Source: Pseudomonadales bacterium (GTDB lineage: Bacteria > Pseudomonadota > Gammaproteobacteria > Pseudomonadales > Pseudohongiellaceae). Taken from it: a stretch of DNA of 64,000 nt. Below, piece after piece: positions 17,650-26,199 of the stretch; positions within the stretch are counted from its first letter, which is position 1; every line of letters starts with the position of its first letter. The position numbers and the translations under genes are program-made. The notes under the pieces were generated by a model, which was not told where the DNA came from, did not search any database, and saw nothing but the letters and a program-made list of their open reading frames with translations. The stretch spans positions 124,001 to 188,000 of the forward strand of contig JALRBQ010000013.1 of NCBI GenBank assembly GCA_023257655.1, given 5' to 3'.

Positions 17650-18630
17650 CTGATGCTCCAGTTGGCGGGCCCCGCCGAGAATGCCGGGGAAGGCGTAGTT
17701 GCCTTCGTGGCAGGCATACTCATACATGCGGTCGCCGGCCGGCCGACGGTTCATGGCGATCTCGCCGGTCCAGGCGCGCTGATAGGAGGCCGGGTCGTCC
17801 ATGGTGAAACTGTACTTGATCTTGTCCGGTCCGATCAGCTCGAAGCGTTCGGTGATCTGCAGCTGCTCCGAGCTGCCGCGGTAGGACTGGAAGTCGTTGA
17901 AGTTCTTGGTTTCAACCACCAGGGTGTCGCCCTCCCAATGCCCGACCGAGTCACCCATCCACTTGTTCAGGTCGGTGTTGTTATGGGCCTTGTTCAGGGG
18001 AATGATGCGGGTGTCATGCACCATCTCCACCAGAATCACCACGTAGTCTTCGGTCTGCACAATCTGGTAATTGTTGTTATACATCACCGGCAGCATGGGC
18101 GGGCCGGAACTGGAGCCGAAGGACAGCAGGCAGCGCTCACCCAGCGGTCGCAACTCGGGACCATCGAAGTCCTCGACGCCGGGCATGGCGCGCAAGCGGC
18201 TGACCATGGCATTGGAGCGGAAACCCTCGACGAACGGAATGCGGCCATTGGCCGGATCGACGATGATGGAGGTGCGATATTCGCCATTGATCTCGATGGC
18301 ATTGGTGCCGCGGTCGACCCAGAAATTGTTATACCCGGCTTCCGTGTTGCCGTCTTCTGGGGGAGCCCGTTCCGGGTCGCTCGGCAGGTCGGCACGAGCG
18401 ATGCGGTCGCGCCAGCCCTGCTCCTGATCGGCGGCCTCGGCGGCGGTCAAAAAGCCTTTCTCGCCGAATTCCACCGGACGTTCCAGTGGGGTCTGGGTGG
18501 CATTGGTCCAGATGCCTTGCAGGTCAGGCTGGCCACTCGGCGTGCGGGGCGGGGTCCATTCCTGCCCAAAAGCCGGCAGCGCGAGAAGCGAGATGAGTGA
18601 AGCAACGAGGACGGGGGCGCGTGTTGTCAT
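17632..18630 (-). CDS. Secreted conserved hypothetical protein
   Basis: Signal peptide MTTRAPVLVASLISLLALPAFGQ; GQPDLQGIWTNATQTPLERP; start refined. Confidence 0.75.
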   Translation of the reverse strand: MTTRAPVLVASLISLLALPAFGQEWTPPRTPSGQPDLQGIWTNATQTPLERPVEFGEKGFLTAAEAADQEQGWRDRIARADLPSDPERAPPEDGNTEAGYNNFWVDRGTNAIEINGEYRTSIIVDPANGRIPFVEGFRSNAMVSRLRAMPGVEDFDGPELRPLGERCLLSFGSSSGPPMLPVMYNNNYQIVQTEDYVVILVEMVHDTRIIPLNKAHNNTDLNKWMGDSVGHWEGDTLVVETKNFNDFQSYRGSSEQLQITERFELIGPDKIKYSFTMDDPASYQRAWTGEIAMNRRPAGDRMYEYACHEGNYAFPGILGGARQLEHQEALNQ

Positions 18631-19022
18631 TGTTATTCTCCAGACACAGATTGACCCGATGTCAGGCAGGGTACTCCTTCTCCCCTGCCCCCTCAATATG
18701 CGCCGCGACACAGCTCCCGAGCGCCGGGACAGAATGCAGAAGCGAACATGACGGCGAGCCGAGCGGGGTTTGCGACGAAGCGGATGCCGGCGCCGGGCGG
18801 GCCTAACAATCCTCAGTTACTTATTCCTGAAAACCCGTTGAATAACAGGCTACTGATTCCTGCAAAGCCTGCAGATTACGGCCTTCGGTGGCGCGTTCTG
18901 CAATAATCTGTGACATTAAACATCGGCACTGGGATGCCCGCCGATAAATTGCTACTATTCTTCCCACGTTGCCGCCGCCTGTTGAAAGACGGCGTTGCGC
19001 GCCCAATACTCATGACTCGACG

Positions 19023-19056
19023 CAGACTTGTTCAGACCTTGTTTCGACCTTGTTGA
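19023..19056. repeat. ~12-bp tandem repeat upstream of redoxin gene
   Basis: cagacttgtt/cagaccttgttt/cgaccttgttga. Confidence 0.55.
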
Positions 19057-19075
19057 GAGAAGAGGAGTTGTACAC

Positions 19076-19672
19076 ATGAAGTTTCCGGTCCGCTTATTCA
19101 CTGCAGCCGCCTGCCTGCTGGTCACGGTCAATGCCGTTGCCGATGAATGGCTGCGCTCTATCCCCGATTTCACGCTCACTGACCAGTTCGGCAAGACGCA
19201 CTCGCTGGAGCAGTACAAGCAGGATGAACTGCTGGTGCTCTACGTTCAGGGCGTCGGTTGCCCGATCGCCCGTATCGCGCTGCCCAACTATCGTGCTGTG
19301 CGTGATGAATATGCGGCCAAGAACATCGACTTCATCATGTTCAATGCCAATATCCAGGACAGCCCGCAGCGCATCGCGAAAGAAGCCGATGAATTTGGCA
19401 TCGATTTCCCGATTCTGAAAGACGAAGGCCAGATGCTGGCCAAGGCTTTAGGCGTTGAGCGCACCGCCGAGGTTTTCATCGTTAATCCGAAGACGCAGGA
19501 AGTGCTGTTCCGCGGCCCGATCAACGACCAGCTCGGTTACGAGACCCAGCGCAACAACGCCAGCCAGCATTATCTGAAGGATGCGCTGGACACGGTGTTG
19601 GCCGGTGGTGTCGTCAACATGGACGACATTCCCGATTCCAAGGGATGTCTCGTAGCGATTTTTGATTCGTGA
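19076..19672 (+). CDS. Secreted redoxin (thioredoxin-fold) domain protein
   Basis: IPDFTLTDQFGKTHSLEQYK ... LVLYVQGVGCPIARIALPNYRAV; start refined to ATG 19076. Confidence 0.8.
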   Translation: MKFPVRLFTAAACLLVTVNAVADEWLRSIPDFTLTDQFGKTHSLEQYKQDELLVLYVQGVGCPIARIALPNYRAVRDEYAAKNIDFIMFNANIQDSPQRIAKEADEFGIDFPILKDEGQMLAKALGVERTAEVFIVNPKTQEVLFRGPINDQLGYETQRNNASQHYLKDALDTVLAGGVVNMDDIPDSKGCLVAIFDS

Positions 19673-19707
19673 TTTGAAGATTGAGTTTGCAGAAATAAAA
19701 CAGAATT

Positions 19708-19733
19708 AAAAAAGGGGCTTAGGCCCCTTTTTT
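19708..19733 (+). terminator. Intrinsic terminator after redoxin gene
   Basis: aaaaaaggggc-ttag-gcccctttttt. Confidence 0.9.
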
Positions 19734-19757
19734 GTCGGCGTCCCCTTAGGTCCTAAT

Positions 19758-20279
19758 TTAATTAGAAGGACTATTTATGCGCGCCCTGATTCTATTCAAA
19801 TTTTGCAGTTCTGAATCGGAAGCTATCTCTAGCAATCTGTCGTCGATAATTTTTACCAATTCAGGGTTCCAGTTAGCTCGATTTTCAGTCCACCATACTT
19901 GTGAATATCGGTTGCCAAAAACATCAGCAACTGCTTCCCCAATCGTTTCTGTTGGATCGTTTTTGAATACGCCCAATTGATACAAAACCAATGTTCGTGC
20001 GAATTGGTCCATGTGAGCATAGATGTAACCTCGCATTTCAAGCATCTCCGAAGTACTGAGATTTTCCGGTTCTTCTATTGCTTTCTGAAGAACCTGAGCA
20101 AAGTTCTCGCTTTGCAAGCTCTGATCAATTTCCATCCATCCATTCTGGTGTTCACTAAACAATGATGCCCTTGCGAGCTCCGAATTTTGATTAATCTGCA
20201 TCCAGACCAGAACCAGACCGGCAACAATCCCTATATTTGCACCTAGTTGAATCCAGCCATTTAATCTATTCCAATCCAT
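19758..20279 (-). CDS. Small membrane-anchored hypothetical protein (paralog family member 1)
   Basis: MDWNRLNGWIQLGANIGIVAGLVLVWMQINQNSELARAS; start refined to ATG downstream of the 113-bp repeat. Confidence 0.75.
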   Translation of the reverse strand: MDWNRLNGWIQLGANIGIVAGLVLVWMQINQNSELARASLFSEHQNGWMEIDQSLQSENFAQVLQKAIEEPENLSTSEMLEMRGYIYAHMDQFARTLVLYQLGVFKNDPTETIGEAVADVFGNRYSQVWWTENRANWNPELVKIIDDRLLEIASDSELQNLNRIRARINSPSN

Positions 20280-20300
20280 TTGATTTTCCTGGGGAACTTT

Positions 20301-20413
20301 AGGGGACACTAATGCCTTGATAACTTAACAATCTCGCTATGACTTTTGAGTGCACTGAGTAATTAGTAACCTCTGCGTGAATTCGTAAAGTTATTAAGTT
20401 ATTAGTGTCCCCT
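20301..20413. repeat. 113-bp element copy A with 13-bp terminal inverted repeats
   Basis: AGGGGACACTAAT ... ATTAGTGTCCCCT perfect TIR; aligns without gaps to copies B and D. Confidence 0.9.
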
Positions 20414-20791
20414 GTTTCCCGCCAGTGCCGCGAGAAGTCCGGCTGCCGCAGCAGTGTTCAGATATTCGCGAAGTTCGCAAATTTTTCCATCACGCACATC
20501 ACCAACAACACACGCTGCCAGATCCAGGTTGCTCCCGTCCGGTAAGACGCCCCGAACCTTGTGCTCCTCGACGAATCCGCTTGGCGTTGCAGACCGTCTG
20601 GTTTCTTCGTAGCGAAAATTATGCACTACTCGAAGGACTGCTCGAGAAAATCCCAGCAGTGACTCAAGATCCATCGGTGGATTGTTGTTTTGTATCGCCT
20701 GAAAGTTCGCAGCACACAGACTACGAACACTTTCATCATCGCCCTTGGTAAAAGCATCGAATAGCGCTTCACATAAATTGATATTATTCAT
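20402..20791 (-). CDS. NTF2/SnoaL-like domain protein (putative)
   Basis: EALFDAFTKGDDESVRSLCAANFQAIQNN ... GSNLDLAACVVGDVRDGKICELREYLNT pattern. Confidence 0.65.
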   Translation of the reverse strand: MNNINLCEALFDAFTKGDDESVRSLCAANFQAIQNNNPPMDLESLLGFSRAVLRVVHNFRYEETRRSATPSGFVEEHKVRGVLPDGSNLDLAACVVGDVRDGKICELREYLNTAAAAGLLAALAGNRGH

Positions 20792-20864
20792 AGGGATTGC
20801 AATATTTTTCCTATACCGTTCTTAACAATAGTCGTGGTTTTTATTTTTGGAACTCTAGAACTCC

Positions 20865-20977
20865 AGGTGACATAAATAACTCAGTAACTTAACAAGCTCG
20901 CTATGACTTACGCGCGCTCTCAATAACGCGCAATCTCTGCATGAATTCCTAAAGTTATTAAGTTATTAGTGTCCCCT
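20865..20977. repeat. 113-bp element copy B
   Basis: aggtgacataaataac...ctctgcatgaattcctaaagttattaagttattagtgtcccct; same length as A and D. Confidence 0.9.
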
Positions 20978-20986
20978 ACTTGCTCT

Positions 20987-21433
20987 TTATGCGGCAGCAA
21001 TGCACTCGATTTCTACGCGACTATCCCCACCCAGACTAATGCCAATGGCGGTGCGGGCTGGCTTGTTCTCAGGAAAGAATTCAGCATAAACCTCGTTCAT
21101 GGAGCTCCACTCAGCCATGTCGACCAGATAGACCGTGCATTTCACAACTCGATCCATTGATGAGCCGAAACGTTCGAGTGCGTCTTGAATCGCTTCAAGT
21201 GCACGTCGTGTTTCGGGTTGCACTCCCGCTTCTCCGGGACCCCCGGTTTTGCCAGCCAGGAAAATCAGTCCGCCATAGCGCACACCTTCGGAGTAAGGTG
21301 CGCGCGAGTTTGGATTCAGATATTCCGGTGCAGCCGACTGTTGAGTTGCTTCGGCGGCTTGTGCGGTGGATGTCTCAGGTTGGCAGGCGAGCAATAGATT
21401 CACGAGAGCGATAACGGCTATGATTCTGAACAT
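20987..21433 (-). CDS. RidA-family protein with lipoprotein signal peptide
   Basis: MFRIIAVIALVNLLLACQPE lipobox; APYSEGVRYGGLIFLAGKTG ... PARTAIGISLGGDSRVEIECIA RidA pattern; start refined. Confidence 0.85.
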   Translation of the reverse strand: MFRIIAVIALVNLLLACQPETSTAQAAEATQQSAAPEYLNPNSRAPYSEGVRYGGLIFLAGKTGGPGEAGVQPETRRALEAIQDALERFGSSMDRVVKCTVYLVDMAEWSSMNEVYAEFFPENKPARTAIGISLGGDSRVEIECIAAA

Positions 21434-21615
21434 GCTATTCCTCCAGGGAAAGTCTCTTAGCGAGAAGAAGTGAAATTGCGAAATACTGGAAACGTCCATA
21501 GCTAACCAGCTTAACCGATAACCCCGCTAATATAGCAGCCTTGATCTGCTAAGCTGTGTTAATTCTCCGAGGTCTCACAGCTTAAACTGTCAGACTCTGG
21601 GTGTCCCCTTATAAC

Positions 21616-22056
21616 CTAGTTCCTTATTAGTTCGATGAACTCCGGATCAAAATTTGCCTGATCTATGCCTAGACTTTCCCACAAAGGGAGAAGGTCCCTG
21701 GCCCCGACAAGGAGGTCTTCAAATGAAGGGTCGTCCAAGAAACCTTGCCTGTATTGATAGTGTTGACCCTGCATTCGATAAACCCTGGCAGTTTCCCAAT
21801 CACGCAGCCGTCGCAGCTCTATGCTAGACAATGAGCTTACACCTTCGCTTTCCAGTTGATCGTAAATGCTTGGAAGATAGTCAGACAAGGCTGCGTTCTG
21901 AAAAGACGCTTCTATCTCAGAAATTCTCGCCTGATAAGTCGCCGCAGCGGTAATTTTATTGGATTGATTTATCTGAATTCCCAGAAAAACCAGACCTAGA
22001 ATCACCCCAAGATTTGCTGCTAAAGACAACCAATCATTTAATTCATTTCTATTCAT
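21616..22056 (-). CDS. Small membrane-anchored hypothetical protein (paralog family member 2)
   Basis: MNRNELNDWLSLAANLGVILGLVFLGIQINQSNKI; same N-terminal motif as 19758..20279; start refined to an internal ATG. Confidence 0.75.
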   Translation of the reverse strand: MNRNELNDWLSLAANLGVILGLVFLGIQINQSNKITAAATYQARISEIEASFQNAALSDYLPSIYDQLESEGVSSLSSIELRRLRDWETARVYRMQGQHYQYRQGFLDDPSFEDLLVGARDLLPLWESLGIDQANFDPEFIELIRN

Positions 22057-22217
22057 GCTTATAAGATCTTGAGGTTGAGACATTCTTGAGTTTGTCTATG
22101 ATCATAATGCCCATCTAAACGAGGCAGTTAGCGCACAACGAGTTCGTTGGGATTAATATTTGGTCTTCCCGACCCCTTTATTTCGCTGTGCTCAGTGCGA
22201 AAAAAAGTAAACTAGAC

Positions 22218-22247
22218 TAAAGTTATTAAGTTATTGGTGTCCCCTAT
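22218..22247. repeat. Half copy (right end only) of the 113-bp element
   Basis: ctaaagttattaagttattggtgtcccct. Confidence 0.75.
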
Positions 22248-22269
22248 CTCTCTTATTTTCCTTCGATTG

Positions 22270-22680
22270 TTATGTAGCCCCATCGGCAGGGCTCGAACTA
22301 CGTTGATAGAAGAAAAATGCTATGCAGCCTAAAAACCCGCCGAATGAAACCAAATTTGTAATTATAGTTAAAACTGGAACGGCCCAGTCAGGATTGGTAC
22401 CGAACCAGATGAGTGATTCTGGATTAGAATCCTTTAGGCTAAGTAGATACAGATACATTCCACTCATATCGTTTCTGATCAGGTTCATGCGGAAAATCAA
22501 CATGATGCAAACGAGTGAGAACAACGATAAAACTAGAACACTAAGTACTCTGTTCAATTTGTCAGCTGCAGCAAAACACATCACCAGAAAGGCAGAAAGA
22601 ACACCTATGTAACCGTACATGAGTTGGTTATAACCACTTATATACCCAAGTAGAAGCTCTGCTGCATCATGTGGGGTCAT
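22270..22680 (-). CDS. Small multi-TM hypothetical protein
   Basis: Three to four hydrophobic segments (YGYIGVLSAFLVMCFAAA, VLSVLVLSLFSLVCIMLIF, VLTIITNLVSFGGFLGCIAFFF). Confidence 0.65.
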   Translation of the reverse strand: MTPHDAAELLLGYISGYNQLMYGYIGVLSAFLVMCFAAADKLNRVLSVLVLSLFSLVCIMLIFRMNLIRNDMSGMYLYLLSLKDSNPESLIWFGTNPDWAVPVLTIITNLVSFGGFLGCIAFFFYQRSSSPADGAT

Positions 22681-22702
22681 GTACTATTTACCTTGGAAAT
22701 TT

Positions 22703-22815
22703 GGGAGACACTAATAACTTATTAAGTTCAGAAGCTCGCTATGACTCTTGGGTACGTTGAATGACTAGTAATCTCTGCATGAATTCCTAAAGTTATTAAG
22801 TTATTAGTGTCCCCT
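22703..22815. repeat. 113-bp element copy D
   Basis: gggagacactaataacttattaag...gttattaagttattagtgtcccct; same length as A and B. Confidence 0.9.
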
Positions 22816-22834
22816 ATTTCTCTGAATAAGTAGC

Positions 22835-23305
22835 CTAGTTTTCGCTGTCTATTTCCTGTATGAGACGATCTATCTCATCACGGAAACTCTGAGAGTATTG
22901 ATATTGTGCCCCTGCCCAGACACGTTGAATTCCAGGCTCACCAAGTTGACGCTTCCATCTGACAAGCCTTGGTTCGAATTCTTCCGCGTCATACAACCCT
23001 TGTTGATACTGGTACCATTCGTTGGATAGGATCGTAAAGTAACTCGTTGCCATCATCAAAAATACAAAATACTCTGGGCCGGGTTCTAATTCGTTCCTTT
23101 AGCCTAATCCAAAGATATTTGCATGTTCAATATCACTTCCAGCAAAGTAGCTCCATGATAATTGCTTTTCCGTCATGCTATCCCTAGTTTAAGATCGAAT
23201 CATTTGGGTATTTTGTTGAATTTCTAAGCCTTAAAAAATTATCCCCAGGATTACACCGATATTTCCGATCACACTTAGCCATTTGTTAAGTAATTCAGCG
23301 TTCAT
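22835..23305 (-). pseudogene. Pseudogene of the small membrane-protein family (paralog 3), three in-frame TAA codons
   Basis: One frame reads MNAELLNKWLSVIGNIGVILGIIF*GLEIQQNTQMIRS*TRDSMTEKQLSWSYFAGSDIEHANIFGLG*RNELEPGPEYFVFLMMATSYFTILSNEWYQYQQGLYDAEEFEPRL... Confidence 0.85.
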
Positions 23306-23396
23306 AACGATCTATCCGGCTGCAGATATTTTTCTAAGAAACATAACGCCCGTAATAATGGGCTCGCTTTAGCGAGTCCTTTGATTGATTTGATGG

Positions 23397-23939
23397 TTAT
23401 TTGTACATTTCTCGCAGTTCGCCAATAGTCAATTCGCATTTACGAATAGCCAAATTCAATCTTTCCTTCTCTTGCGCATCTAAATGTGTGTAGAAATTGT
23501 GGTCAATAGCAAGACGGCGAACTACATTTAAGACATTGAGAATATGGTCTGGGAATCCGCTAATTTCAATACTCCATGAGCCTGGATTGAAATATTCGAA
23601 ATTGTTCCGAAAGGTGTTCTGAATAAGGTTAATTGATTCACGCTCCTCTTCAGACAACTCCAGTGGTCCACGTGCTCCAATTGCTTGCTGACATATCTCA
23701 ATTGCTTCTCCGCAAGTGATGAGCCTAGATTGACCTTTCTTGGTCTTACGGACCACAAACAGATCATCAGTACCCTTCGCTACCTGTATCGCGAATCCAT
23801 AAAGTGCGCCAAAGCACGACATTACAACCCATTTCCAGTCTTCGGGATTGCACTTTGCTCTGTCGAGAAAAATTGCAACTTTTTCAAGATTATCTAACGC
23901 ATTAGTTTCCGTATTAAAACGAGCCCATCTCTCAGTCAT
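23397..23939 (-). CDS. Hypothetical helical protein, possibly HEPN-like
   Basis: NALDNLEKVAIFLDRAKCNPEDWKWVVMSCFGALYGFAIQVAKGTD ... IQNTFRNNFEYFNPGSWSIEISG. Confidence 0.7.
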   Translation of the reverse strand: MTERWARFNTETNALDNLEKVAIFLDRAKCNPEDWKWVVMSCFGALYGFAIQVAKGTDDLFVVRKTKKGQSRLITCGEAIEICQQAIGARGPLELSEEERESINLIQNTFRNNFEYFNPGSWSIEISGFPDHILNVLNVVRRLAIDHNFYTHLDAQEKERLNLAIRKCELTIGELREMYK

Positions 23940-24286
23940 TCACGATGTGCCTCTGTACACATAATATCTGTATAAAGTGCATGCGCACATTGAATTTCGT
24001 GGTAGGTCAGTTTATTCCTCAACCCGCTAATTTGGCAACAGAACGGTTTCCGGCCGAGACGCTTCGATCCTGCATACCAGGTGTCCTATTAAAACCCAAT
24101 AGCAGGTTTCCTCTAATGCCTCGCTGACACATCAGAAAGAAGCGATAAATCAATTGGATATTGCAGGGATACTGAGAGAATGAGCCTTCAATAACTTGAT
24201 GAATCTGAATGACCACAACAGAACCGCTTGATAAGGGCCACGTTGCCTAAACGTGCGGTTTTAAAAGAGATGAGCAAAAACGAAAA

Positions 24287-24318
24287 CCGGGCAATGAGCC
24301 GCAAAGCCCATTGCCCGG
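24287..24318 (-). terminator. Intrinsic terminator of the fpr-like gene
   Basis: CCGGGCAATG-12 nt-CATTGCCCGG, followed on the minus strand by TTTTCGTTTTTG. Confidence 0.8.
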
Positions 24319-24365
24319 ATGTGGAATTACGATTAAAAGCCAGTCAGACGCCGGCTCGAAGTGTC

Positions 24366-25136
24366 CTACTCGACAAACGCCCGCTCAATCACGTAATGCC
24401 CCTTGATCCCATGCCGTGACTCTTCAAACCCCCAACCATTGAGGATGTTACAGGTGTCTTTCAGCATGCTCGGGCTGCCGCAGATCATGAAGCGGTCGTG
24501 CTCGGGGTTGGCTTGTGCCAGGCCGACGTCGCTGAACAGCTTGCCGGAGGCCATGAGGTCGGTCAGACGGCCCATGGTGGGGTAGTCTTCGCGGGTGACT
24601 GAGGGGTAGTACACCAGCTTCTCGCGCACTTCGTCGCCAAAGAATTCATTCTGCGGCAGTTGCTCGGTGATCAGCTTCTGGTACGCCAGTTCTGATTTGT
24701 AGCGCACGCCGTGGGTGAGGATGATGCGGTCGAATTTTTCGTAGACCTCGGGATCCTGGATGATGCTGATGAACGGCGCCAGACCGGTGCCGGTGCTGAT
24801 CAGGTACAGGTTGCGGCCTTCCAGCAGGTGATCGACGACCAGGGTGCCGGTGGGCTTGCTGCTGACCAGCACTTCGTCGCCCACCTTGATGTTCTGAAGG
24901 CGTGAGGTCAGGGCGCCGTCGGCGACCTTGATGCTGAGGAATTCCAGGCCTTCCTCGTAGTTCGGGCTGGCGATGCTGTAGGCGCGCAGCAGCGGCTTGC
25001 CGTCCACCGGCAGGCCCAGCATCACGAAGTGGCCGTTTTCGAAACGCAGGCTGCGGTCGCGGGTGGTCTTGAAGCTGAACAGGGACTCGTTCCAGTGATG
25101 GACTTCGGTAACGCTCTGGGTCGAAATGCTGGCCAT
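24366..25136 (-). CDS. fpr: Ferredoxin--NADP reductase
   Basis: LRAYSIASPNYEEGLEFLSIKV, LISTGTGLAPFISIIQDP, CGSPSMLKDTCNILNGWGFEESRHGIKGHYVIERAFVE C-terminus. Confidence 0.93.
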   Translation of the reverse strand: MASISTQSVTEVHHWNESLFSFKTTRDRSLRFENGHFVMLGLPVDGKPLLRAYSIASPNYEEGLEFLSIKVADGALTSRLQNIKVGDEVLVSSKPTGTLVVDHLLEGRNLYLISTGTGLAPFISIIQDPEVYEKFDRIILTHGVRYKSELAYQKLITEQLPQNEFFGDEVREKLVYYPSVTREDYPTMGRLTDLMASGKLFSDVGLAQANPEHDRFMICGSPSMLKDTCNILNGWGFEESRHGIKGHYVIERAFVE

Positions 25137-25245
25137 GGGTCTGGACTCCGGTAATACCTGAAAATACTGATTGCGCGGAGTCTAGGGCTTGCCTACTATA
25201 TCTGTAAAATTGATTATTTAGCTATATCTTATCTATTTTTTAACT

Positions 25246-26199
25246 ATGTACTTCACCCTGAAACAGCTCCAGGTCTTCCTCGCCGTGGCCAATCACGAGA
25301 ACGTGAGCCGTGCCGCCCAGGAGTTGGCCATGTCGCAATCCGCGGCCAGCGCGGCGCTGAAGGAACTGGAGCAGCGCTTCGATGTGACCCTGTTCGACCG
25401 CATTGGCAAGCGCCTGCAATTGAACGAGCAGGGCTCGGCCCTGCGACCCCGGGCCGCCGCCCTGCTGTCACAGGCCGAAGAGCTGGAGGAGAATCTGACC
25501 CGCCACAGCGACATCGGCGAGATTACGGTGGGGGCCACGCTCACGATCGGCAACTACCTCGCTATTGGCATCATGGCCGGCTTCATGAACGAACACCCGT
25601 CGGCTCGGGTCGAGCTGACGGTGGAGAACACGGCGGCCATCGCCGCGCGGGTGCGCAACTTCGAGATCGACATCGGTTTGATTGAAGGGGAGTTGCAGGA
25701 ACCCGACCTTGAGGTACGCTATTGGCGCGATGACGAGCTCGCCCTGTTCTGTGCGCCGGAGCATCCTCTGGCGCAGAAGCGGGTGCTGACTGACGAGGAT
25801 CTGCTCGCCGCGCGCTGGATCGTACGTGAACAGGGTTCCGGCACCCGCCAGGCCTTCGATCGCGGCATGAGTGGTATCCTGCCCAACATCGATCTGCGCC
25901 TGCAGTTGCAACACACTGAGGGCATCAAGCGCGCAGTGGAGGCGGGTCTCGGGATCGGCTGCCTGTCGAAGATCACGTTGCAGGAAGCATTTCAGCGTGG
26001 CTCACTGGTGCCGCTGAGCGCACCCCATCGCACCTGGACCCGGAAGTTTTATTTTATTTTGCACCGACAGAAATTCCTCAGCACGGGAATCAAGAGTTGG
26101 ATTGAACATTGCCTGCGCTCTGGTATCAGATCAGATAGCAGCCCGGATAAGCGCCCCGATAGCCGCCCTGATAACAACCTCGAGAACAAAAACCCGTGA
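25246..26199 (+). CDS. LysR family transcriptional regulator, divergent from fpr
   Basis: MYFTLKQLQVFLAVANHENVSRAAQELAMSQSAASAALKELEQRF HTH. Confidence 0.93.
   Translation: MYFTLKQLQVFLAVANHENVSRAAQELAMSQSAASAALKELEQRFDVTLFDRIGKRLQLNEQGSALRPRAAALLSQAEELEENLTRHSDIGEITVGATLTIGNYLAIGIMAGFMNEHPSARVELTVENTAAIAARVRNFEIDIGLIEGELQEPDLEVRYWRDDELALFCAPEHPLAQKRVLTDEDLLAARWIVREQGSGTRQAFDRGMSGILPNIDLRLQLQHTEGIKRAVEAGLGIGCLSKITLQEAFQRGSLVPLSAPHRTWTRKFYFILHRQKFLSTGIKSWIEHCLRSGIRSDSSPDKRPDSRPDNNLENKNP
26133..26192. repeat. 12-bp in-frame tandem repeat in LysR C-terminal tail
   Basis: agatagcagccc/ggataagcgccc/cgatagccgccc/tgataacaacct/cgagaacaaaaa; protein ...SDSSPDKRPDSRPDNNLENKNP. Confidence 0.75.

Follow-up and report, generated by a model that had tools for sequence, protein, structure and literature searches.

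What is the 113-bp palindrome-ended repeat that punctuates a minus-strand array of small genes at this locus, and where does it come from? The window, meaning the whole stretch of DNA analysed, is 64,000 nt long (C15:124001-188000, where C15 is a contig) and belongs to a 3.1-Mb draft genome that is assembled in 101 contigs and is 93% complete. The scope is this one draft genome of its species, compared with relatives in the genus. The repeats are very probably miniature, non-autonomous elements of a TIRtron that were mobilised in trans by its transposase and are now orphans. TIRtrons were named by Di Nocera, De Gregorio and Rocco (2013), who gave the consensus GGGGWSAS (PMC3733652).

Table 1. 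Features of the repeat family and of the array in which it resides. Coordinates are those of the window unless a genome and locus are named.
Feature	Position	Strand	Remarks
Copy A, non-autonomous TIR element	20301..20413	-	113 bp; perfect 13-bp TIRs
Copy B, 113-bp element	20865..20977	-	10 bp past stop of RidA-like gene
Copy C, 113-bp element	22703..22815	-	20 bp past stop of ORF 22835-23059
Solitary TIR end (half copy)	22217..22247	-	behind stop of gene 22270-22680
TIR end, second subfamily (CTTAAACTGTCAGACTCTGGGTGTCCCCT)	21581..21609	-	behind stop of gene 21616-22083
Possible degenerate TIR end (GGCGTCCCCTTAGG...)	19737..19758	-	at stop of gene 19758-20279
Small-gene array	19758..23939	-	small membrane-protein families, SnoaL-like, RidA-like, others
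Integron attC	23341..23411	-	outside the repeat; sole one detected in this genome
Intact element	G040 L098 1170-2271		
Intact element	G054 L099 3248-4396		

The three copies (A, B and C) are 113 bp each, align without gaps and are 80-81% identical in pairs, and the coordinates given for them in the preliminary description are right. In an ungapped comparison on the same strand of the window, the true copies match copy A at 90 and 92 of 113 positions, and no further match on this (+) strand exceeds 50/113, which is the level of shuffled sequence. The inverted ends span ~27 bp (GGGGACAC...GTGTCCCC), and the arms of copies A and C pair over 28-29 nt at 86% (29 nt in copy A). Also borne out are the perfect 13-bp TIR of copy A, the conservation of a central box (CTCGCTATGACT) and of the right ~45 bp across copies, and the placement between minus-strand genes. 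Upstream of each copy is a minus-strand gene whose stop codon is close by; for copy A it falls inside the TIR, which thereby provides the stop of a SnoaL-like gene (20402-20791). Folding, which had been suggested as a check, shows that whole 113-bp copies form strong hairpins that are far better than those of shuffled sequences, both as DNA (z -2.2 to -6.3) and as RNA (z -4.3 to -7.5). A single arm has no stable fold as DNA (0 kcal/mol). An Rfam search of 19000-25000 returned no match.

Ends of the same type are also found singly. The half copy placed at 22218-22247 in the preliminary description is recovered at 22217-22247, and an end of a second subfamily lies behind another array gene; a complete 117-bp element with ends related to the latter is present on contig C78 (L031 12444-12560). 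The trace at the low-coordinate edge of the array is weak (77% of 22 nt against family D5) and may be a degenerate TIR end. Setting aside the gene end that bears the attC site, five of the six gene ends of the array have a TIR element or a solitary end and the sixth has this weak trace. From this single case, a preference of the elements for gene arrays of this kind is no more than conceivable, and the TIR elements of the relatives are located in ordinary intergenic sites.

The repeat is not confined to the array. A search with copy A finds the same ends on four further contigs (C88, C78, C74 and C38) in elements of 84-199 bp: (i) C88 carries two additional 113-bp copies, (ii) C78 carries two elements of 150 bp and one of 199 bp, besides the 117-bp element with second-subfamily ends, and (iii) C74 carries one element of 84 bp. 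Five 113-bp copies of the same length are, thus, located in unrelated places on C15 and C88. Both contigs are long (302 kb and 110 kb, respectively), so the 113-bp class is unlikely to owe its spread to mis-binning; the other three, C78, C74 and C38, are short contigs. Among the 60 other members of the genus, 19 have the repeat, mostly as inverted pairs that are 77-117 bp apart, intergenic, near gene ends and linked to a Y1 transposase. The occurrence on other contigs and in several size classes indicates a dispersed family and no mere local duplication, which the preliminary description had named as the finding that would count against a mobile element. A segmental duplication of gene plus spacer, with the copies later kept as terminators or mRNA-stability elements, would suit the shared orientation, the close spacing and the RNA hairpins just behind stop codons; yet it deserves almost no credence, as copies A, B and C adjoin genes that are unrelated to one another, the same ends recur in copies on the four other contigs and in the 19 relatives, and an RNA role leaves the identical TIRs around a transposase unexplained. 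On C38 (L033 4131-4753), the TIR ends are followed by several other palindromic repeats, intermixed and with terminator-like hairpins.

The transposase is found in the relatives. A search for RAYT-type transposases identifies one in G040 between two such ends, in a unit of ~1.1 kb that is composed of AGGGGACACTAATAACTTAGTAACTTAG, a ~42-bp leader, a gene of 335 aa (MPRRGRLHIPGGCYHVIGRGLERR...; L098 1240-2247) and, finally, CTAAGTTACTAAGTTATTAGTGTCCCC. The ends of this element share AGGGGACACTAATAACTTA(A/G)TAACTT with the 113-bp copies. The same plan is seen in G054, G012, G039 and G059, with the transposase within GGGGACAC or GGGACAC TIRs. In relatives, intact transposons with a Y1 transposase gene thus terminate in the GTGTCCCC ends of the repeat, and the RAYT link that the preliminary description had only inferred is substantiated; so is its reading of the repeat as a non-autonomous MITE- or REP-like element, in view of these common ends and the dispersed copies. 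A scan of GTDB genomes gives 80 homologous loci, which are distributed in Gammaproteobacteria (one Pseudohongiella record included) and other phyla. Among 61 of these loci that were inspected, the majority lie between TIRs that score well above shuffled controls. The TIR core is GGGGACAC in most of the closest homologues; it becomes GGGGACG in a second ring of relatedness and GGGGTCAG-like in more distant loci.

In this genome, the cognate transposase is present only as pieces on C78 that adjoin a TIR: 40 N-terminal residues at 83% identity, then residues 115-150, plus a second scrap. Whole-genome searches place no member of the cognate family inside the window, so the earlier statement that the window has no transposase holds for that family, and the suggested search for a RAYT/Y1 transposase elsewhere leads to remnants beside the same ends here and to intact genes in relatives. 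As the draft is 93% complete and fragmented, an intact copy could be missing from the assembly. A close transposase, intact or broken, is present in 8 of the 19 repeat-bearing genomes versus 2 of the 41 without the repeat (Fisher p=0.0009, by a test that ignores the relatedness of the genomes). The association is incomplete in both directions: several genomes, this one included, have copies and no cognate transposase in intact form, and the search with the repeat found no match in G039 and G059, which do have the transposase.

The transposase is a Y1/HUH tyrosine enzyme with an additional C-terminal helix-turn-helix domain. Y1_Tnp scores above the Pfam cut-off in four of four transposases; at the C-terminus, HTH_23 is over the cut-off in two of the four and Bac_DnaA_C is weak in all four. 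The motifs NHYH, VFQ and YIHLNP are conserved, with NHYH and YIHLNP invariant. An AlphaFold model (mean pLDDT 83.7) has the E. coli REP transposase 4ER8 as its best PDB match; a PDB sequence search with the transposase gave no match, and the kinship to PDB entries comes from fold comparison. IS200/IS605 enzymes (ISDra2, IS608) share the Y1/HUH fold, and 2XMA and 2VJV are among the matches; they differ in that the element described here has no TnpB, has the extra C-terminal HTH domain and has long TIRs in place of subterminal hairpins.

The closest known counterparts are TIRtrons (TIRYTs), in which a RAYT-like Y1 gene lies within long GGGGWSAS TIRs and the TIR families occur in genomes as singles, dimers or clusters (PMC3733652). 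Quentin et al. (2018) assign most TIRYTs to TnpA-Y1 subclass 2.1 (group 1 of Bertels), without REP-like repeats (PMC6006769). Members of this subclass have NHYH, FQ and YIHLNP motifs, an HTH_23/Bac_DnaA_C-like C-terminal domain and GGGG[AT][CG]A[CG] TIRs, as here. By contrast, the subclass has no REP-like repeats nearby, whereas a multicopy miniature family with the same ends is present here, and its median length is 238 aa versus ~335 aa (PMC6006769). The features examined as marks of a TIRtron, namely a Y1 transposase, long GGGGWSAS TIRs and a repeat that shares those TIRs, are all found. The element is, thus, a TIRtron/TIRYT of TnpA-Y1 subclass 2.1, and the guess made in the preliminary description is essentially right; its comparison with RAYT-associated repeats stands as to the RAYT-related transposase, and the ends themselves are of TIRtron type and are not canonical GTAG-tagged REPs.

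Canonical REPs or REPINs of a GTAG-type RAYT (Bertels and Rainey 2011, PMC3116915) are the nearest look-alike. They share with this family the inverted arms, the short variable middle, the intergenic location and a proposed movement in trans, and the pairs noted above in relatives, with their spacing, position near gene ends and Y1 link, are REPIN-like. However, in a canonical REP each arm folds into a hairpin by itself and bears a GTAG or GTGG tag at its 5' side, and the arms here are not hairpins alone and carry GGGGACAC instead of such a tag. In addition, the transposase is in the subclass that Quentin et al. describe as lacking REPs, and some of the miniatures are traceable to the transposon itself. 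This identity is, therefore, very improbable.

The tracing of miniatures to the TIRtron depends on the longer copies of C78. The 199-bp element and the C78 transposase remnant have 96 bp in common at 81% identity, including the start region and the TIR side, and the 199-bp element, read in the gene orientation, retains ATACCAAGGAAAAGTCGGCTGCATAT, where the transposase gene begins (MPRKSRLHI; its ATG is damaged). One 150-bp copy retains ATGCCAAGG at the position held in intact elements and has ATGCCAAGGAAAGATTGG where these have the ATG. Because the first codons of the transposase are retained, the 150- and 199-bp copies are internal-deletion derivatives; like MITEs, they carry parts of the parent beyond the TIRs and no coding capacity. 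The interior of the 113-bp copies, when aligned to that of the longer copies, has no convincing similarity (p 0.03-0.40), and is too diverged for an internal deletion to be more than the presumed origin of the 113-bp class, which could alternatively have arisen by two TIRs capturing unrelated DNA. The five copies of equal length on two contigs imply that multiplication followed the deletion.

Movement of the elements is indicated in the relatives by filled and empty sites, which the preliminary description had proposed to look for. Two 93-bp elements occur at one locus of G034; G012 has the insertions as well, and G016, G028 and G019 lack them. The empty sites of G016 and G028 align to the filled ones at 86-87% identity, and 30-40 bp of target DNA differ, so the insertion points are approximate. 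At the second of the two sites, the element displaces the last codons of an ORF and adds a stop, such that the protein ends in SPDMIDEAGDTNNLTT versus SPDMIDEANGVNG. Dispersed copies together with filled and empty sites are a further MITE trait of the family. At this shared site, the element core of G012 is inverted with respect to that of G034, and G012:C5 (L107 1731-1983; L286) has short fragments in tandem, each an element tip joined to flanking DNA (AGGGGACACAGAACTAGGGGACACGAACTAGGGGACAC). The tandem fragments and inverted core are possibly traces of repeated one-ended cutting and rejoining.

The TIRs have an internal periodicity. When each TIR is compared with itself at offsets of 3-12, identity in the GGGGACAC type has one pronounced maximum, at 8 (71% versus an expected 32%), and in the other TIR types the maximum is at 7 (46% versus an expected 28%); the z-scores of 9.5 (lag 8) and 7.3 (lag 7) are inflated by relatedness. 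The repeated words vary among families, while the spacing is constant. From the sequence pattern, this iteron-like tandem repeat of 7 or 8 bp, located within the GGGGWSAS core, is a putative binding site of the HTH domain. At the very ends, a T follows CCCC directly in 85 of 95 cases, which would fit a cut at C^T, given that TnpA-REP enzymes cleave ssDNA next to the repeat at a CT dinucleotide (PMC8266576). G040 and G054 pointed to a CTAG target motif, which was discarded as it is present at only 5 of 95 ends; the T after CCCC and an outer pyrimidine bias remain.

In the most likely pathway, the transposase would bind the TIR by its GGGGACAC core and tandem octamer and would cut ssDNA at the tip of the element, where the C^T of CCCCT is a plausible cleavage point, with the arms paired in one long hairpin. 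By this presumed single-strand pathway, any DNA between two TIRs could be moved by the transposase; loss of internal transposase sequence would yield short copies that are mobilised in trans. As the transposase of this genome now appears broken, the copies would be orphans that drift apart, those of the window having presumably come to rest at the 3' ends of genes in what was once an integron-type cassette array. A bolder extension is two-step end recognition, in which the HTH domain would bind the iteron-like 7/8-bp repeat in dsDNA and the HUH domain would cut the GGGGWSAS tip when the ends pair, a scheme closer to iteron-dependent HUH Rep proteins than to IS200/REP, combined with miniature end pairs that would carry neighbouring small genes and reshuffle arrays; this extension is speculative and rather unlikely.

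The kind of element is known, and the additions made here are the deletion derivatives, the empty sites and the tandem repeat in the TIRs. None of these three subjects is treated in the passages of PMC3733652 consulted, and the examples of that paper come from other species. In the literature searched, no description of the tandem TIR repeat was found, nor were the deletion history and end organisation of the element found worked out. An orphan palindromic repeat is, thereby, tied to its parent transposon, with two sizes of deletion derivative in one genome and with relatives in which sites are either occupied or empty. The intact TIRYT elements, whose ends are defined, also make up a small natural collection for study. 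If the tandem TIR repeat is the HTH site, the way in which REP-less RAYT relatives find their DNA becomes testable by gel shift.

The setting of the repeats invites comparison with integrons. The array is bounded by a peroxiredoxin-like gene on one side and a ferredoxin-NADP-reductase-like gene on the other; in G003, G031 and G002, no more than 64-389 bp separate the two. It includes one intact attC site of the genus's own kind. Such sites are found in G028, where they recur about every 500 bp, and in G011 and G024; all three genomes encode an integron integrase (TIGR02249). Three proteins of the window (19758, 21616 and 22835) have kin that are encoded beside such attC sites or in the loci of relatives. 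The genus-type attC and cassette-related proteins make a decayed cassette array most likely, and the array is probably CALIN-like and was invaded by TIR elements. Chromosomal integron arrays of the genus (L245, G028:C7:153000-161000; L247, L248 and L244) have attC classes of ~70 bp and ~125 bp.

The 113-bp repeats might, then, be taken for attC sites, or derivatives of these, that punctuate the cassettes: each copy is behind a gene stop, the genes are co-oriented, a real attC and cassette-type genes are in the array, the 113-bp length, palindromic arms and variable middle mimic attC, and copy A reaches 13 bits against a long-attC model (E about 0.1 in 7 kb). This reading is nonetheless highly improbable. 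Two models built from real cassette arrays of the genus give no 113-bp copy a meaningful score, and the main one returns none of the copies among its matches in 18500-25500, even unfiltered. The attC boxes of the genus (ACATAAC/GTTATGT) differ from the GGGGACAC ends, and identical ends bound a transposase gene and also occur in ordinary intergenic regions of relatives without a nearby attC. No integron integrase (TIGR02249/IntI) was found in this genome. The "unusual recombination site" offered as an alternative in the preliminary description is, thus, not upheld; the one true attC of the array is a feature separate from the TIRtron-derived copies. A general caution follows, in that palindromes among cassette-like genes need not be attC sites.

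The RidA-like gene (20987-21499) is in different contexts in most of eight relatives (L224-L231), and a degenerate TIR-like end lies behind the RidA stop in G016, G038 and possibly G019, as in the window. Joint movement of RidA with a TIR was considered and not retained, as the contexts vary in most of these relatives and the comparison revealed no mechanism for it.

Two other Y1 genes of this genome were considered as the cognate enzyme and set aside. The gene on C34 (323 aa) is of a distant family and not an obvious cognate; this third Y1 family (L035, G000:C34:9345-9875) has a DnaA-like C-terminal domain (TIGR00362 match), and many genomes of the genus have it at much the same length, as though it were inherited vertically. 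The gene at C15:98 kb (374-aa frame) is likewise of a distant family and has its own GGGGACATCC-type repeats nearby; these are located upstream of the gene (L036 2900-5000, G000:C15:98 kb) and form with it a second transposase-repeat pair in this genome.
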